Source: Victivallis lenta
GTDB lineage: Bacteria > Verrucomicrobiota > Lentisphaeria > Victivallales > Victivallaceae
Direction of reading: 5' to 3'
Length of the DNA: 63,708 bases
Assembly (NCBI RefSeq): GCF_009695545.1
Contig: NZ_VUNS01000028.1
Location: 1-63,708 of the forward strand
Shown one piece after another: positions 21,181 to 57,261 of the stretch. Each line of letters opens with the position of its first letter. Positions within the stretch are counted from its first letter, which is position 1. The translations under genes and the position numbers were made by a program. The notes beneath the pieces are model-generated. The model saw only the letters and a program-made list of their open reading frames with translations, was not told the origin of the DNA and did no database searches.

Positions 21181-21441
21181 TCAGAGCCGGCGGAAAAAGG
21201 CGAACGACGCCCGGGGCAGCCCGCTGACGACGCCCTCCGGCGAAATGCGGCACGCCTCCGCGCCCCACAACCGCTCCCATTCCCCGCGCGGCAGTCCGTC
21301 CGACGCGCAGGTCTCCTCATCCGCTTCCGCCTCGCGGAAGAGCGTGAGATAGGCTCCGCCATCCGGGCAGCGGCAGAGAAAACCAGTGCAGCTTTTTCCG
21401 TATACCGGCGCATATGGTATTCCCTCTCCGATATTTCTTAA
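21181..21441 (-). pseudogene. Possible C-terminal protein fragment, unknown
   Basis: Reading the minus strand from about 21441 to TGA at 21183-21181 gives a protein-like frame without a start codon: YAPVYGKSCTGFLCRC, then GGAYLTLFREAEADEET, and it ends SFAFFRRL. The upstream stop is a TAA about 20 nt earlier. An ATG with GGAGAGGG before it (21414) exists, but in another frame, so a single-base frameshift could have disabled a small gene. The composition is GC-rich like the host. It may be the tail of a lost carbohydrate-active protein. Confidence 0.3.
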
Positions 21442-21468
21442 AAAAATGAAAAAAAATTAACTGAGCTA

Positions 21469-21497
21469 TTGCATTATACTGTATCATACGGTATAAT
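21469..21497 (+). promoter_or_regulatory. Promoter of the GntR regulator and sugar locus 2
   Basis: TTGCAT at 21469-21474 and a consensus TATAAT at 21492-21497, spacer 17 nt. The ATG of the regulator is 36 nt downstream of the -10. Confidence 0.6.
21475..21495. promoter_or_regulatory. Near-perfect 21-bp palindrome, candidate GntR operator
   Basis: TATACTGTAT, a central C, then ATACGGTATA: the two arms are inverted copies with a single mismatch. The palindrome fills the spacer and overlaps the -10 of the promoter for the GntR-type regulator at 21533. Binding here would block RNA polymerase, so this is a likely self-regulation operator. Confidence 0.6.
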
Positions 21498-21532
21498 ATA
21501 ACCAAATAAAACCAATCATCAAGGATATCGGT

Positions 21533-22600
21533 ATGATTCAGTCCCGTTTAAAATCCGACGAACTGTACCCGCGTCTCTGGAATGAATTACAGCACTACTC
21601 CCCCGGCGAGCAATTCATGTCGATCCGGCAGATCATGAGAAAATTCGAAGTCAGTCAACTGGTCGTGGACCGTACGCTGTCGCGTCTGCGCGAAGAAGAG
21701 TTCCTGACTGCGGAAGGCGGACGCGGTCTGTTCGTTTCGGAGAAGATCATCCGCTTCACCGTCGGGAAGCCCGAGACCGTACTCTGTGTCGTGCCGCGCT
21801 GGTACTCCCACGATATCACGGAAATGCTGAATGCGTTTCGGGAGCTTCAGCCGAAATTTCCCCAGCGGAGACTGCTCGGATATGAGTTCGACTTCGCCCG
21901 TCCACTACCCGGCGAACTTCCCCTACTCGAAGAGAACGTCAAGGGAATTCTGTTGCATCCGGCGGGAGATGAACTTAACGCCGCCGAAGTCGAGGGATTC
22001 AACCGACTCCGCGACGGCATCCCGGCAGTACTCTTCGGCCGCAATGCCCTAAGCAGCCGCCTTCCCTCGGCCAGCCTAGACGATGCGTTCGCCGGAAGCC
22101 TGGCGGCACGTCACCTGCACCGGAACGGTCACCGCAAACTGGCCGTATTGCTCTCCGAGCCTCACAACCGCGCTACGCTCGATCGGGTCAAGGGAGTCGA
22201 AGACTACGCAGAACTGAACGAACTGGAACTGGAGGTGATCGACTGCGGCATCCGGAACGGCGAATTTGCTCCCGGCAAAACCTACGACCATATGTTCAAC
22301 TATCTGCAAAGAAAGTTCGACTTCACCGGCATCGTCGGAGTGGCCAGTAATTCGCTCTCAGGCTTGCTGAATGCCTGTCACAACCGCAATATTGCAATTC
22401 CCGGTGAATTGAGCGTGGTCACCATCGGCAGCACTGGCCTGACCCGAACTTATGCGCCGCCGATCGATACAGTGGAAACCAACCTGCCGGGGCAGATCAA
22501 GACGGCACTCGAATTGCTCATCTCCGGCAATCACGGGAATATCTCCCTGAAAACCGATCTGATTGAACAAGGTTCCGTGCGCAAACTCGCCACCAAATAA
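21533..22600 (+). CDS. GntR-LacI type transcriptional regulator
   Basis: A 355-residue repressor. Residues about 5-72 form a GntR winged helix ([34 protein letters not shown]), and residues about 80-350 form a LacI-type periplasmic-binding fold ([42 protein letters not shown]). AraR of Bacillus has this build. It probably senses a sugar and controls the pseudopilin and glycosidase genes that follow after only a few bases. A palindrome in its own promoter (21475-21495) fits autoregulation. Confidence 0.88.
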
Positions 22601-22614
22601 CAATGGAGGAAATG

Positions 22615-23460
22615 ATGCGGAAACACCAAACAGCGATTGAATCTTTCCCTGCCTTTTCCAGTCCCCGCCCATGTCAAACAGCGAAAGCCGGAAGGAAGAA
22701 AGCGACGAAAACCATGTCTGGCTTCGCCTCAAGCAATCCAGACCGTTCACCCGCTTCCGGCAAACAGGAAATCCGTTTCACATTGATTGAATTACTGATC
22801 GTAATTGCAATCATCGCGATATTGGCGAGTATGCTGCTGCCGGCGCTGAACAAGGCCCGCAGCAAAGCGCAGACCACCACCTGTTCCAACAACCTGAAAC
22901 AGTTCGGAATCGCGCACAACCTGTACGCCGATACCTACGCCGGTGTGCTTTGTCCGGAAATCCTGCAGCCGGGGGACATCATCTGGGTCACGCAGTTCAC
23001 CAACCTGATCGGCCGTGAAAAAAGCGCCCGGCTTTTCCACTGCCCGGCCTCCGATGAAACCAATGCGACGCTGCTGAGCACTTATTATTCAAAATCGCCG
23101 TTCAACCCGGACGCTCGTCTCAGCTATGCCCAGAACTACCGATTATCAACTTGGCGCACCTATTCCCCGACACGCAAAATCAACCAGTACAAATATCCGT
23201 CGAAAACCGCCGCCAATTTTGACGCCCCCATGCCCAAATGCAAGGAAAAACTCGTGGCGCTGCATTACGGTATTCTCTGGACTCCCAGCGAAATTCCGAA
23301 TGAAGGTTATTACGGCACAATACAATACGGTCACGACGGCGGCATAAACATGCTGCTGCTCGATGGCCACGTCAACTTCTATCCCTACAGCACCATGCTT
23401 CGCGCCCGCGCCGAACGTTCCCAAAAACTATGGTTGTGCTGGACAATCAACGACAAATAA
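22615..23460 (+). CDS. Type II pseudopilin-like protein with long N-terminal extension
   Basis: A 281-residue protein. The prepilin motif [17 protein letters not shown] lies unusually far in, after about 55 polar residues ending SGKQEIR. Residues after the anchor follow the DUF1559-like pattern ([21 protein letters not shown]) and end with [19 protein letters not shown]. The start is uncertain: GGAGG at 22606-22610 fits ATG 22615, while ATG 22603 and an internal ATG nearer the motif are alternatives. It lies only a few bases after the regulator and 33 nt before the glycosidase gene, clearly one operon. Confidence 0.85.
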
Positions 23461-23493
23461 TCAACGTTTCCGAATAATATAAGGATATTGAAT

Positions 23494-25548
23494 ATGAAGA
23501 AACTATGTACAGCTCTCCTGTCCATTCTGCTGGCCGGAGCCGCGACAGCAGCCGAAGTCTGGCAGGAGGCGGAGGATTTCACCTCCTCCAACTGGCCGCA
23601 CCGGGCCATCTACCTGCAGAAAGACGGCAGCGGAGCCTCCGGCGGGCTGATACTCGAACTATTCACGGCGAAAAAACCGGCCGGAGCCGATCATTATTAC
23701 ACTTCATATGAAGTCGCAATCCCCACCGACGGCCAATACGCCCTCTGGGCGGCGGTCTCCAATCCCGCTTCCGGCTGGGCTTCGCCGATCGCGATTGCGG
23801 TGGACGGCAAAGTGGTCTGGGACGATCCGGAAGAAATGAAGTGGAAAAGCGGCGCATTCGGAGCACCCGCCCCGCGCGCGGTGCTCGGCTGGATCAATCC
23901 CGGTTCGGTCGAACTGAAAGCCGGCAAGCACCGGATCGACTTCCGGGTCACGCGGCCCCGCCGCGATTCCAACGCCTATAGTTGTTTCTTCGACGGCTTC
24001 CTGCTGACTACCAATCCGGCAATCAGGCCCCGGGCGAACTATCGCATTTCCAAGCTGCAGCCGGAGTGGAAAAAGCAGTTGGCGCAATTCAAAGACTTCC
24101 GTGCTTTGCAGTTCGCCACGGAACAGAAGCTGGTACGTGCCTTGATGAAGGAGAAAGCACCGGTTGAGGGCATCTCCGATGAAAATGCAGCGATGGCCCT
24201 GAAAAAACTGCTGGCCCGTCCCCTGCCCGCACCGATGCCGAAAGGAAGCATCCACCGAATCGGGGTTCACGGCATGGAAATCCCACTGGTTCGGAAGGGT
24301 TTTCAGGATGACAAAACCAGCCGGGCCTTCGAGTTGCTCGCCCGTGCCGGAGTCGACACGCTGCGTACCGCCGAGCTCTGCTGGCACCGCCTCGGCAAAG
24401 ATGCTCCGGCGAACTTTGACTTCGAGAATATCGACTATCAGGTGGAACAAGCGGACAAGTACGGGATGAATTTCATGTTCACCATCGGTTACCCTGCCGC
24501 CAAATTCAACAAGCATCCGTTCCACCTCTCCACCTTCAGACCGGAACATGAAGCGCTGTTCCGCGAATATCTGCACCTCATTCTGCCCCGTTACGACCGT
24601 TATGCTCAATACTGGGAGTACGCCAACGAGGTCGACGCTCCAAAGGTCTGGTGGCGCGGCGCCACGCCGCAGGACTACGTCCGCGACTGCCGCATCCTGC
24701 GCGAGGAGATGGATAGACTCGGCATCAAAACTCCCGTGCTTGGCATCTCCGCGACCTATTCGCGCAGCGCCGCACGCGACAAAAACGGCGAGGGACAGGA
24801 ATTCACCCGCCGCTGTCTGTCCGCCGGGCTGGAGCGGTATATCGACGGCTATTCGCTGCACTACACCTGGCAGATGAAAGAACAGGATTTCGTGAAATTC
24901 TTCCGCGAGCTCTCCCCCGGCACGGTCAGCGACAAGCTCGTGAATAGCGAGGAAAGCGCTTTCAGCCATCCGTCGGACATCATCAAGCTGATGGCACGCA
25001 ATCTCTATCTGCACAGGTTCGAAAGCGTCTACTGTTACCTTGCCCGCGATCGGATGGAGGGAGCCAGTCTGAACCGTTCCGGTTTCTTCGACATCGACTG
25101 GCGTCCGAAGCTGCGCCTGCTGAGCCTCGCGGCGGCGGCAGACGCAATGAAAACCCGCAACCTCGTCCGCATGGCTGAACCCGCCGAAGATGTGGAAGCC
25201 TATCTGCTGCAAAACAACCCGGCCGCTCCCGCCGGCTCTCCGAAGTACGCCGTTGTCCTCTGGAAAAATGGCGCGGTCGAAGCAATGAATCCCAACTTCA
25301 CCCCCAGCCCGACCCTCAAACCCGCCACGGTACGCTTCCGCGACGGCAAGGTAGTCAAAGCAGTGGACTGGCTGCTCGATGAAGTTCCCTTCACCGCAGC
25401 TTCACCGCAATTCGAAATCACCGAACGCCCCCTCGTCGTCTATTGCGACGAGCTGCCCTCATGGCCTGAAGTCACGCGCAGCGAATGGCTCAAAAAACAC
25501 CGCGCCTGCACCGTAGCCACTTCCGAAGCCGTTGTTCCCGCCAACTAA
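23494..25548 (+). CDS. Secreted clan-A glycosidase with N-terminal carbohydrate-binding region
   Basis: A 684-residue protein. The signal peptide is MKKLCTALLSILLAGAATAA. Residues about 22-175 look like a carbohydrate-binding jelly roll (VWQEAEDF, HYYTSYEVAIPTDGQYALW). A TIM barrel follows from about 250. Glu379 in QYWEYANEVDAP is the probable acid/base, and Glu486/487 in LVNSEESAF the probable nucleophile. The layout is similar to GH39- or GH5-like enzymes, but I could not assign a family. ATG 23494 follows AAGGA; a TTG two codons upstream also opens the frame. It is the last gene of the regulator-pseudopilin-enzyme operon. Confidence 0.75.
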   Translation: MKKLCTALLSILLAGAATAAEVWQEAEDFTSSNWPHRAIYLQKDGSGASGGLILELFTAKKPAGADHYYTSYEVAIPTDGQYALWAAVSNPASGWASPIAIAVDGKVVWDDPEEMKWKSGAFGAPAPRAVLGWINPGSVELKAGKHRIDFRVTRPRRDSNAYSCFFDGFLLTTNPAIRPRANYRISKLQPEWKKQLAQFKDFRALQFATEQKLVRALMKEKAPVEGISDENAAMALKKLLARPLPAPMPKGSIHRIGVHGMEIPLVRKGFQDDKTSRAFELLARAGVDTLRTAELCWHRLGKDAPANFDFENIDYQVEQADKYGMNFMFTIGYPAAKFNKHPFHLSTFRPEHEALFREYLHLILPRYDRYAQYWEYANEVDAPKVWWRGATPQDYVRDCRILREEMDRLGIKTPVLGISATYSRSAARDKNGEGQEFTRRCLSAGLERYIDGYSLHYTWQMKEQDFVKFFRELSPGTVSDKLVNSEESAFSHPSDIIKLMARNLYLHRFESVYCYLARDRMEGASLNRSGFFDIDWRPKLRLLSLAAAADAMKTRNLVRMAEPAEDVEAYLLQNNPAAPAGSPKYAVVLWKNGAVEAMNPNFTPSPTLKPATVRFRDGKVVKAVDWLLDEVPFTAASPQFEITERPLVVYCDELPSWPEVTRSEWLKKHRACTVATSEAVVPAN

Positions 25549-25636
25549 TCCGGATATCGCAGACGCAAAAAGCAGAAAGAAAACCTCAGGACTGATCCGG
25601 ATTTCATTCATTCACCACGATAACGACAACAGGAAC

Positions 25637-26623
25637 ATGCAGCTGGAAACCGAACGCCTCAGAATCCTGTCGCTGCCGCAGTTGAAACTCCGGCTCGAAG
25701 GGATGCCCCGCTTCGAGCACGAAGCGATGGCCTCCCCGGCGGAGCTCGCGGAGAAAATTCCGTCCTCCTGCCCGTGGGCCGCCAATTGGCAGATCATCTG
25801 GAAGGAGCGGAACTGCTCCGTCGGCAGCGCCGGTTTCATGAACGTGCCGGACGAAACCGGAGAAGTTGAAATCCGCTGCGGCATCACCCCGGCATTCCAG
25901 CGGCGGGGATTCATGACCGAAGCCCTGCGCGCGATTGCGGCGTGGGCATTGGAACAGCCCGGCGTCACCGGCGTCATCGCGGAAACCGAACCGGAAAACA
26001 CGGCCTCGCGCCGTGTGCTCGCCCGGTGCGGCTTCAAGCCGGTTTCCGCGACGCGCTGGCGCCGGCTCGGACCGGCGGAGATTACGTACCGGGAACTCCC
26101 GGCCGGAGAGATCGAAACAGGGCTTTTCGCCTCCTTCAACCGCTATCAGGAGGTGAAACGGTGCCGGCGGAGGGAAAACGGCCGCAACGTCCTGAAGGAG
26201 ATCGCTTTTACAGAGCAATGGAGCGCGGAGGATTACCGGCTTCTCGCGGAAGCTCTGCGCGGCGCCGTCGCCGCCGGCGGCGCGGTTTTCGGCGCGTTCG
26301 ACGGAAAAAACCTGATCGGTTTCGCCTCGCTGGAGAACCGGCCCCGCGGCTCCCGAAATCAATATCTGCAGCTCTCGAACCTTCACGTATCGGCCGAATA
26401 TCGCGGGCGCGGCATCGGCAGGCTCCTGTTCCGGGCGGCCTGCCGGCGGGCGGCGGAACTGCGGGCCGAACGGCTCTACATCTCCGCCCATTCCGCCGAA
26501 GAGACGCAGGCCTTCTACCGCGCGCTGAACTGCACGGAGGCGGAAGAGCTCATGCCGGATCTGTTCGAACTTGAACCGTGCGACTGCCATCTCGAATTCC
26601 GGCTCTCCCCCGGCCGCGCATAA
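25637..26623 (+). CDS. Tandem GNAT N-acetyltransferase
   Basis: A 328-residue protein with two acetyltransferase folds. Residues about 1-165 are a RimJ-type domain (METERLRIL-like start, CGITPAFQRRGFMTEALRAIAAWAL, ENTASRRVLARCGF). Residues about 185-315 are a second GNAT domain (QLSNLHVSAEYRGRGIGRLLFRAACRRA, then SAEETQAFYRALNC). The acyl-CoA binding (Q/R)xxGxG/A loops are visible in both. Substrates are unknown. ATG 25637 was chosen because homology-like sequence begins there; the frame is open back into the preceding gene. It converges with the minus-strand gene, 14 nt away. Confidence 0.75.
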   Translation: MQLETERLRILSLPQLKLRLEGMPRFEHEAMASPAELAEKIPSSCPWAANWQIIWKERNCSVGSAGFMNVPDETGEVEIRCGITPAFQRRGFMTEALRAIAAWALEQPGVTGVIAETEPENTASRRVLARCGFKPVSATRWRRLGPAEITYRELPAGEIETGLFASFNRYQEVKRCRRRENGRNVLKEIAFTEQWSAEDYRLLAEALRGAVAAGGAVFGAFDGKNLIGFASLENRPRGSRNQYLQLSNLHVSAEYRGRGIGRLLFRAACRRAAELRAERLYISAHSAEETQAFYRALNCTEAEELMPDLFELEPCDCHLEFRLSPGRA

Positions 26624-30554: not shown

Positions 30555-30685
30555 CCGGGAAACGCATCCGATATCTAGAAGGATATTAAGATATTTCAGG
30601 ACAATCGTCCCGAACCGGCATTTCTTTTCTTTTAATATCGTCCTTGTACGTATATAGTAACGAAGATCAACCGAAAGAGGAAGAA

Positions 30686-31558
30686 ATGGAATATTTCAGG
30701 AAAGAGTGGCTGTTCACCGTCCGGGATTTCCCGATTTTCATCAACAGCGACATTCCGCTGAAGAACACGCTCTGGCATACGCACGATTTTTTCGAGCTCG
30801 TGCTTGTCGCGCGCGGCCACGGCGAACACCGCCTGAGCGAAACCGTCTCCTACGGCATCATGCAGGGCGATGTCTTCGCAATCTCCGCCGGGAAGGTGCA
30901 CTGTTACACGAACACCCACGACATGCTGCTTTACAACATCCTGTTCGAACCGGAGTTTCTCGGTTCGGAGTGGAAGGAGCTGCTGGAAATGCCGATCATC
31001 CGCTCGCTGGAGAACTCCCCGCTGCACAAATTCCACCTCCCGATGTTCACCCGCTCCGCTGCGGAAGTGCTGCTGCGCCGGATCATCGGCGAACTCTCCA
31101 TGCAGCCCCCGTCGTTCAGAATCAGCGTCAAGGCGCTGTTCCTGGAGTTCCTGGTCCTGCTCGGGCGGGCGCAGGTGAAGGAGCTGCACAGCTCCGACTA
31201 CCGGCAGGAAGCGATCCACCGCGCCATCATCCACATGGAACGGAACCTGGCCAGGAAACTGACGCTGGCGGATATCTCGAAACACGCCAATCTCAACAAA
31301 AACTACTTCTGCGAATGCTTCCGCAATGAAACCGGCACTTCCCCCTGGGATTACCTGATCCAGCTGCGGGTCGAAAAGGTCAAGAAGCTGTTGAGCGAAA
31401 CGGACCTGCCGATCAGCGAAATCGCCCAGATGTCCGGTTTCTGCGACCAGAGCTACATGTCCCGCGCATTCCGGAAAACCGAGTGCATGACGCCTCGCAG
31501 CTTCCGGGCGGCTTTCCGCCGGATTTCGACCGGTCCGGCCGCAATCCCGCCGGAATGA
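30686..31558 (+). CDS. AraC-family transcriptional regulator
   Basis: A 290-residue protein. The N-terminal cupin-like domain (HTHDFFELVLVARGHGEHRLSE, GDVFAISAGKVHCY) senses the ligand. The C-terminal 100 residues hold two helix-turn-helix motifs (LTLADISKHANLNKNYFCECFRNETG, ISEIAQMSGFCDQSYMSRAFRKTEC). The ATG at 30686 is preceded by AAGAGGAAG. It is divergent from the pseudopilin-glycosidase-ADP-ribosylglycohydrolase operon, which it most likely activates. Confidence 0.92.
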   Translation: MEYFRKEWLFTVRDFPIFINSDIPLKNTLWHTHDFFELVLVARGHGEHRLSETVSYGIMQGDVFAISAGKVHCYTNTHDMLLYNILFEPEFLGSEWKELLEMPIIRSLENSPLHKFHLPMFTRSAAEVLLRRIIGELSMQPPSFRISVKALFLEFLVLLGRAQVKELHSSDYRQEAIHRAIIHMERNLARKLTLADISKHANLNKNYFCECFRNETGTSPWDYLIQLRVEKVKKLLSETDLPISEIAQMSGFCDQSYMSRAFRKTECMTPRSFRAAFRRISTGPAAIPPE

Positions 31559-55792: not shown

Positions 55793-57261
55793 TTCCGGAT
55801 CATTCCTCTCAATTCCTCTCTATAATCCTCGATCACTTCCGGCTTTTCCGCATCATAGCCGATCACTGTGTCTCCGAAGCGGTCGAACAGCTTTTCGTTG
55901 ATGGAGTCGACCAGTACCGACGGCAGGAGACTCCTCTCCCGGGCGAAAGTCCCCCAGTCCCCGCCGTCCAGCAGACAGCCGAGAAAGCCGTATTCGGCGT
56001 CGGGAAGAAGCGCGGCCTCTTCAGCAGCCGCCGGACCCGTTTCCGGCGGCGGAGCGGAGGGCGGCGCAACTGCCGGACCGGCGGCCTCTTCCGGTTCTTC
56101 CACAATCAGCCGGTTCTGCGTCGCGAGCGCCGCCTCGCGGATGCGGGAAAGCCGGGAGAGGTCCAGCGTGATTTCGGACCGGGCGCTTTTCCGCTTCGCC
56201 TCAAGAAGCTTCCCGATTTCGGCATTGATGATGCTTTGGAACAGCCGGGTGGTCTTTTCCTCCTTCAATGCGGATTTGAAACCGTACTGAAGGCGCATGA
56301 GGGCGTCGATGCTCTTCAGCAGCGCCCCGATCTGCCGGAGTTTGTCCTTGTAGCGCAGAAACCGGTCGCAACTCCAGCCGCCGCCGCTGCAGCGGTATCG
56401 GTAAATATCGTTGATCTCGTAGACATACTCCCGCCGCCGGATGCGGTCGAAAAAGACGGCGGAACGGAACATATTGTAGCTCGTGCCGGTCTGAAGTTTG
56501 CCGAAAAATTTTTCGCAGAGGCTGTTCCGCCGGTTTTTGCCGTAATACTCCGACAGGGATGCGAACACGCCGGCGACCACGGTTTTCACATCGTCCGGAT
56601 ACTGCTTGAAAAATCCGGAGTTTTCAAGGCGGTAAGGCGAGAGGGAGACCAGGGCCGCAAACACCTCGTCCGTACTGTGCGAGCCGTAATTCATCAGCGT
56701 CAGGATCGCCCGGTCGGCCTCCGCATCCGGGCAGCCGTCCAGCAGGGATCTGTCGAGGTTGTAGTAAACGACGTAATCCCGGAGCCACAGCCTGGCGTAG
56801 CGGTTGATGGCCGAATCGATCTGCCCGTAAGCTTCGTGAAAACTTTTCAGCCTGCGGAAGCCCTCCTCGGGAGTGCCGGTTCCGATCTGGTTCAGCAGCT
56901 CATAGAGGTAGACGAAAGCGAACGAGAGCGAAGTTTTTTCGACGATGCCGCGCCGGACCCGGGTTCGCCAGGAGAAATAGCCGCGGAGCTGCCGGTCGTT
57001 CATGGCCTGATAGGTCGGGAAATAGCGGACGAACTCCCCGCCGAAGTCGAAGTCGTCCTCGAACTCCTCCATGAACTTGCCCTGCTTATAGAAGATGATC
57101 GCCTCGGAATTTTCGTAAATGCTGTAGCTCCGGGCGAGCTTCCGCATCTCCCGGTATTCCGGCGGGGTGGCGCCGGCGAGCAGGGCCGCCGTTCTCGGAA
57201 TCGGCTCGTCCCGATAGATTCTGGATGTGACCGCGTCGCCGGACGCGCCTTCTTCGTACAT
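55789..57261 (-). CDS. TerB-N/TerB-C domain protein
   Basis: A 490-residue protein. Residues about 40-300 show the TerB-N pattern (KLARSYSIYENSEAIIFYKQG, YFSWRTRVRRG at 95-105, FVYLYELLNQIG, YVYEINDIYRYRC). No clear central TerB domain is seen. A Pro/Ala/Glu-rich linker spans 389-416. Residues about 420-488 match TerB-C (VDSINEKLFDRFGDTVIGYD, EVIEDYREEL). TerB-type proteins are linked to tellurite- and phage-stress systems. It is the first gene of the operon and probably the sensor or scaffold. Confidence 0.82.
   Translation of the reverse strand: MYEEGASGDAVTSRIYRDEPIPRTAALLAGATPPEYREMRKLARSYSIYENSEAIIFYKQGKFMEEFEDDFDFGGEFVRYFPTYQAMNDRQLRGYFSWRTRVRRGIVEKTSLSFAFVYLYELLNQIGTGTPEEGFRRLKSFHEAYGQIDSAINRYARLWLRDYVVYYNLDRSLLDGCPDAEADRAILTLMNYGSHSTDEVFAALVSLSPYRLENSGFFKQYPDDVKTVVAGVFASLSEYYGKNRRNSLCEKFFGKLQTGTSYNMFRSAVFFDRIRRREYVYEINDIYRYRCSGGGWSCDRFLRYKDKLRQIGALLKSIDALMRLQYGFKSALKEEKTTRLFQSIINAEIGKLLEAKRKSARSEITLDLSRLSRIREAALATQNRLIVEEPEEAAGPAVAPPSAPPPETGPAAAEEAALLPDAEYGFLGCLLDGGDWGTFARERSLLPSVLVDSINEKLFDRFGDTVIGYDAEKPEVIEDYREELRGMIRK

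Follow-up and report, generated by a model that had tools for sequence, protein, structure and literature searches.

In the LacI and GntR families, local autoregulators bind their own promoters and control adjacent carbohydrate genes. Members of the AraR subfamily, as outlined in the available portion of PMC4494728, join a GntR-type helix-turn-helix to a LacI domain, and the same portion describes dimers of the GntR family as binding palindromes of the form GT-Nx-AC. AraR of Bacillus subtilis recognizes eight boxes with the consensus At(T/A)tGTaCGTAcaa(A/T)T, has a 13-gene regulon, and binds when arabinose is not present (excerpts of PMC4218819). We analyzed a locus of Victivallis lenta that lies in a 63,708-nucleotide stretch of DNA (contig NZ_VUNS01000028.1; hereafter the window) and in which an initial annotation, made from the letters of the sequence, had described a near-perfect palindrome in the promoter of a GntR-LacI regulator. 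Our reading of the sequence is that this palindrome is most likely the autoregulatory operator of the downstream AraR-type regulator, acting by promoter occlusion over a three-gene operon.

The regulator gene (21533-22600, plus strand) encodes 355 amino acids. Profile matches identified both of the domains on which its description as a GntR-LacI hybrid depends: an N-terminal GntR winged helix-turn-helix (PF00392, residues 20-68, 28.1 bits against a cut-off of 27) and a C-terminal LacI/GalR-type ligand domain (Peripla_BP_3, residues 192-333; PF13377, 58.9 bits), and the best PDB sequence match to a LacI-type domain had an E value of 3.1e-10. Two AlphaFold models (mean pLDDT 40.4 and 33.0) were too poor for use. 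The base-reading Arg of the AraR and FadR recognition helix is absent from the protein, and in an alignment made by motif rather than by structure its position is taken by Gln42 (codon 21656-21658, plus strand). Because Gln stands where AraR and FadR have this Arg, the self-operator reading is weakened to some extent.

The 21-bp palindrome TATACTGTATCATACGGTATA is found exactly at 21475-21495, with the single mismatched arm position that had been reported for it, and the symmetry extends two bases further on each side. The resulting 25-bp inverted repeat (21473-21497), ATTATACTGTAT-C-ATACGGTATAAT, pairs at 11 of 12 arm positions, the exception being T21480/G21490. Its core, TGTATCATACG, occupies 21480-21490 and encloses an inner core, GTATCATAC (21481-21489), that would fit the GT-Nx-AC consensus of the GntR family. 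The predicted promoter consists of a -35 element, TTGCAT (21469-21474), that has three of the six consensus positions and is the same in all three orthologues, a 17-nt spacer (21475-21491) that lies entirely within the palindrome, and a -10 element, TATAAT (21492-21497), that forms its right end; a ribosome-binding site, AAGGA (21521-21525), stands 7 nt before the ATG at 21533, and all of these elements are on the plus strand. The weakness of the -35 element explains why the promoter is absent from a mechanical promoter scan. The palindrome thus fills the spacer and the -10 element, as had been proposed, and the 25-bp dyad also covers the last two bases of the -35 element.

Each half of the dyad, ATAC-N-GTAT, is a small dyad in itself, which allows the site to be seen alternatively as a pair of direct repeats spaced by 10 bp. 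A second dyad overlaps the main one; its axis is at 21480 (ATAC-T-GTAT, 21476-21484), 5 bp upstream of the main axis. The right half of the dyad is also part of two overlapping promoter-like matches on the minus strand (9/12; 21493-21522; TTGATG to TATATT or TATTAT). The closest gene on that strand begins about 500 bp away, the TTGATG of the two matches is not retained in one of the orthologous loci (genome G005, below), and no conserved divergent gene was seen; a divergent transcript over the dyad is unlikely. An RNA hairpin can be set aside, as the dyad ends at the -10 element, upstream of any transcript from that promoter. We also dropped a candidate second operator at 21401-21420, a degenerate complement of the site that is without conservation in V. 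vadensis.

A dimer bound at the core would cover the spacer and the -10 element, and for this reason repression by occlusion, rather than activation, is the natural reading. In the proposed mechanism, a dimer of the encoded regulator would occupy the spacer and -10 element by binding the 25-bp dyad, whose core is TGTAT-C-ATACG, and would keep RNA polymerase off the promoter. Once the LacI-type domain took up its ligand, which is probably a sugar set free from the target glycan, the dimer would leave the DNA and the operon of regulator, pseudopilin, and enzyme genes would be transcribed. Release by a sugar ligand is suggested by analogy with AraR. The proposal in the initial annotation that the palindrome is placed for self-repression holds for the position, which is conserved and at which a bound protein would obstruct RNA polymerase; the repression itself we infer.

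We examined whether the dyad accompanies the regulator in related genomes. Orthologues were sought in 78 genomes of the family at E <= 1e-60; many of these genomes are incomplete, and in several of them 26 candidates were scored. Among the candidates scored, a regulator copy of at least 78% identity was present in 3 of the 78 genomes (the source genome; G008, which we take for V. vadensis; and a third Victivallis, G005), and the next-best matches in the family reached at most 44%. The dyad was present in all three genomes that carry such a copy, contrary to the possibility raised beforehand that the palindrome might be absent upstream of orthologous genes. Its 25 bp are unchanged in V. vadensis and carry one change in G005, and the arm mismatch 21480/21490 is retained in all three species. 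Identity is concentrated at the site: the block 21465-21499 matches V. vadensis at 35/35 positions and G005 at 34/35, as against 22/32 and 21/32 in the flank (21433-21464) and 44/103 and 40/103 farther upstream (21330-21432); in the leader 3' of the block, the values are 29/33 and 16/33. In the source genome, the gene upstream of the site is on the minus strand, and its product has weak matches to zinc ribbons; V. vadensis instead has a plus-strand gene that reads as a putative LacI-type regulator. Because the upstream gene differs between these two genomes, the site goes with the regulator.

At up to three mismatches, the 21-mer occurs once in the 5.5-Mb genome, so the further copies upstream of carbohydrate genes for which a genome scan had been suggested are missing at that threshold. 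A degenerate pattern of the core matched 12 places in the genome, as against 25 for a reversed control, and thus showed no excess. On these two results we rejected a regulon, and the dyad is most likely, as judged from sequence, a private operator with one site for one operon. Across six Victivallis genomes without the orthologue, the sole match with at most one mismatch (G007) falls inside an open reading frame. Of the better places outside the orthologous loci, six were inspected: three are in mechanically called open reading frames (G007, one mismatch; G006, two; G008, three), and two others carry two mismatches each (G000:C29:50740 and G005:C36:18382). The sixth, a palindrome with two mismatches, CCGTATAATACGG, lies at G000:C7:40621-40639 (L116 4622-4640), within the promoter region that precedes a different gene of the GntR type.

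The regulator has many relatives. In its own genome, 43 stretches match it at E <= 0.001, some of them being two pieces of one gene. From the genus we assembled 82 nonredundant regulators, of which 75 had a promoter call and 55 were left after removal of near-copies and of four with a LacI-type helix-turn-helix. At the window's dyad centre, 12 bp before the end of the -10 element, the eight nearest paralogues average 6.6 of 12 pairs and the other 46 average 3.3 (Mann-Whitney p 3e-5). The sequences of these dyads differ at the same promoter position: CTGTATCATACAG in L003 and CTGTATGATACA in L038, the two nearest paralogues, which share the inner core TGTAT-N-ATACA but lack the outer ATTATA arm, and ATTAnnGTG...CAC...TAAT in L004 and L039. 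Two sister promoters from more distant clades have compensated arms (GCGCAG/CTGCGC and GCACAG/CTGTGC), and a degenerate pattern that we made from them matched only those two within three mismatches, with one match for the reversed control. For the sites of two further regulators, one place was found for one and one place plus a three-mismatch place for the other, with no other match below three mismatches; these sites, too, appear to be private. By eye, more distant sister regulators (L092/L097, L084, L012, L013, L037, L052, L056, L077, L079, and L100), which mostly have a recognition helix of the CHR/SRR type, show pairs of direct or inverted boxes, of the GTGCACA type or variants of it, around the -35 element in place of the spacer dyad.

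We also compared the pairing of each promoter's own arms with that of swapped arms. Over the 55 promoters, with arm positions 4-10, own arms gave 2.56 pairs and swapped arms 2.16 (z 3.7, p 5e-5; p 4e-4 without the window's representative), and other arm lengths gave p values of 0.003-0.005 with that representative and 0.007-0.012 without it. A blind scan of 360 centre and arm settings placed the window's centre second (z 3.7), behind a centre at +1.5 (z 3.9), with none above 4. The window's clade (nine rows) had an SH-aLRT support of 100 in a quick tree, and within the clade (10 promoters) own arms again outperformed swapped arms (p 0.002). A centre 5 bp upstream, which corresponds to the axis at 21480 in the window, did as well there (z 3.3), as a result of the repeating ATAC/GTAT make-up of the clade sites, and the paralogues therefore leave the exact symmetry axis undecided; two clade members, L035 and L045, have just 5 of 12 pairs at the window's centre. 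The swap test across paralogues is supportive of self-operators but not decisive. Overall, a self-operator is an ordinary and well-supported design, and several sister regulators repeat it with sequences of their own.

These observations bear on the possibility that the dyad is a real operator but that of another transcription factor, either another paralogue or a global regulator, and not of the encoded GntR-LacI protein. Cross-talk is conceivable in a genome with 90 hybrid-size GntR-domain open reading frames. A global regulator is disfavoured by the uniqueness of the site, and any other factor is disfavoured by the persistence of the site beside the orthologue in 3/3 genomes, despite the different upstream gene in V. 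vadensis, and by the different dyads that the nearest paralogues hold at the same place. We therefore consider binding by another factor improbable, and we favour the encoded protein as the one that would bind.

If the encoded regulator binds the dyad, the layout of the genes suggests what it would control. The second gene (22603-23460, plus strand) starts 2 nt after the regulator stop and encodes a pseudopilin-like protein with a prepilin N-terminus, a DUF1559/SBP_bac_10 match, and an H-X9-DG C-terminal motif. The third (23494-25548, plus strand) starts about 30 nt after the second and encodes a secreted-looking protein of about 684 amino acids with, as read by eye, a signal peptide and a Tyr-Ala-Asn-Glu motif, possibly a glycosidase. 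No plus-strand terminator-like site was found in 22500-26000, and the order regulator, pseudopilin, third gene is kept in all three species. In G005, a 220-aa stretch that is 55% identical to the start of the third protein directly precedes the full-length copy (L114, G005:C61, 4862-4203), which suggests a partial duplication. Because the gaps are short and there is no plus-strand terminator-like site, all three genes should respond to the operator, with transcription presumably reading through into the third. The proposed control of the pseudopilin and glycosidase genes is supported by the operon layout, and the label "glycosidase" is unproven: the third protein had no Pfam or NCBIfam match, and its PDB sequence matches were weak (a glucosidase at E 0.017 and a beta-galactosidase at E 0.022).

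The regulator might instead bind the dyad yet tune its own level only, with the pseudopilin and enzyme genes mainly under other promoters or another regulator. A weak promoter-like match, ACGACA-17-AATAAT (23450-23478), before the third gene is in keeping with this idea; chance alone would give about 1.5 such matches over the scanned stretch. The 2-nt gap between the first two genes, the lack of a plus-strand terminator-like site in 22500-26000, and the retention of the three-gene order in three species all speak against it, and we regard it as unlikely. Repression of the entire operon from the one dyad remains the reading that we prefer.

How far the symmetry itself carries this reading depends on the background chosen. 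No equally good palindrome arose when the local 93 bp were dinucleotide-shuffled 3000 times, and 17 of 1000 shuffles of the complete 575-bp intergenic region reached the score of the dyad. Three palindromes of equal score occur in the window, the operator dyad included; one of the others is CTTGAAAAATCCGGAGTTTTCAAG (56605-56628). The dyad symmetry by itself is borderline, only moderately unusual, and the case for an operator consequently rests on position and conservation. The least probable alternative, that there is no operator and that an A+T-rich promoter, with TATAAT mirrored by a chance ATTATA, has been conserved for promoter function alone, draws on this moderate rarity and on the inclusion of the -10 hexamer in the ATTATA/TATAAT symmetry, but we think it very unlikely, given that the spacer of a promoter can usually drift freely and that this one is identical at 17/17 positions in V. 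vadensis and 16/17 in G005, and given that L003 and L038 hold the inner core with no ATTATA arm.

Whether the recognition helix dictates the operator across the genus was a separate matter. Among the 55 nonredundant regulators, 30 have Gln at the recognition-helix position, the window's regulator included, and GTAT-type boxes were found in 28/30 promoters of the Gln42 type as against 4/15 of the Arg type (p 8e-6), with motif sets that had been chosen after inspection of the promoters. On a tree, only three changes explain the Gln/Arg distribution, and an independent-pairs test was uninformative. In a held-out set of 65 regulators from the own genome (nine without a promoter call, 56 counted), GTAT-type boxes accompanied 1/6 Gln and 5/20 Arg regulators. 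We rejected the Gln/Arg code as a general rule, because it failed on the held-out regulators and rests on few evolutionary changes; outside the genus, matches were too few for replication (three at E <= 1e-12 in seven genomes).

The linkage between regulators and pseudopilins extends well beyond this locus. Over its 5.5 Mb, the genome (G000, of which the window is contig C28) has 100 GntR-domain matches, 99 of them over the cut-off, and no fewer than 150 prepilin N-termini. We defined 90 hybrid-size regulators as a GntR match in an open reading frame of 320-500 amino acids, a definition by size and not by a match to a LacI domain. For at least 38 of the 90, a prepilin-type gene on the same strand begins 0.9-1.8 kb downstream, a lower bound, since 150 of 274 prepilin candidates were scored; random placement, with contig sizes partly estimated, gave 1.3 pairs on average and a maximum of six in 2000 draws. 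In the genus set, 67 of the 82 regulators have enough downstream DNA, and in 48 of these 67 a prepilin-type gene of the same strand follows within 400 nt; in 62 of them, one lies within 2.5 kb on either side. The window contains a second pseudopilin gene (30507-29836, minus strand), divergent to a gene for an AraC-type regulator (30644-31558, plus strand).

A tentative extension, to which we give slightly less than an even chance, is that Victivallis uses glycans through many parallel, mutually insulated cassettes. Dozens of AraR-like GntR-LacI regulators in one genome would each head an operon with a dedicated pseudopilin and enzyme genes, under a private operator of distinct sequence in the regulator's own promoter. 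If so, regulators and sites would form orthogonal repressor-operator pairs of natural origin, diverged within a single genome. The analysis provides a precise predicted operator for one regulator in a poorly studied gut genus, and it indicates where other operators should be sought, namely, for each GntR-LacI gene, within the spacer of its promoter or near the -35 element. The linkage is also a handle on the many DUF1559 pseudopilins of the superphylum, pointing to a role in inducible, substrate-specific cassettes. The literature matches listed, as far as their excerpts extend, gave no account of the operator or of regulator-pseudopilin cassettes. In our view, the pattern of many private operator-regulator pairs tied to pseudopilins merits more attention than the single palindrome.

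The circuit predicted here is of the same type as that of LacI and GntR local autoregulators; it differs in the genes beside the regulator, of which the next is for a DUF1559 pseudopilin and the final one for a secreted-looking protein that has no Pfam or NCBIfam family. Like AraR of B. subtilis, as presented in the available parts of PMC4218819 and PMC4494728, the regulator fuses a GntR-type winged helix-turn-helix to a LacI/GalR-type ligand domain. We do not propose it as an AraR orthologue in the sense of an L-arabinose regulator; its two operon partners are a pseudopilin and a protein of no assigned family. AraR has palindromic boxes in the promoters of its sugar genes (same excerpts); here the palindrome is in the predicted promoter of the regulator itself. 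At the level of protein-DNA contacts, the AraR recognition-helix Arg contacts a G, whereas its counterpart here is Gln42, and by our own count the gap from GT to AC is 5 nt here as against 4 in the AraR consensus as excerpted. Unlike AraR, with eight boxes and 13 genes in the portion of the source at hand, the Victivallis regulator would have one 25-bp site and one operon.
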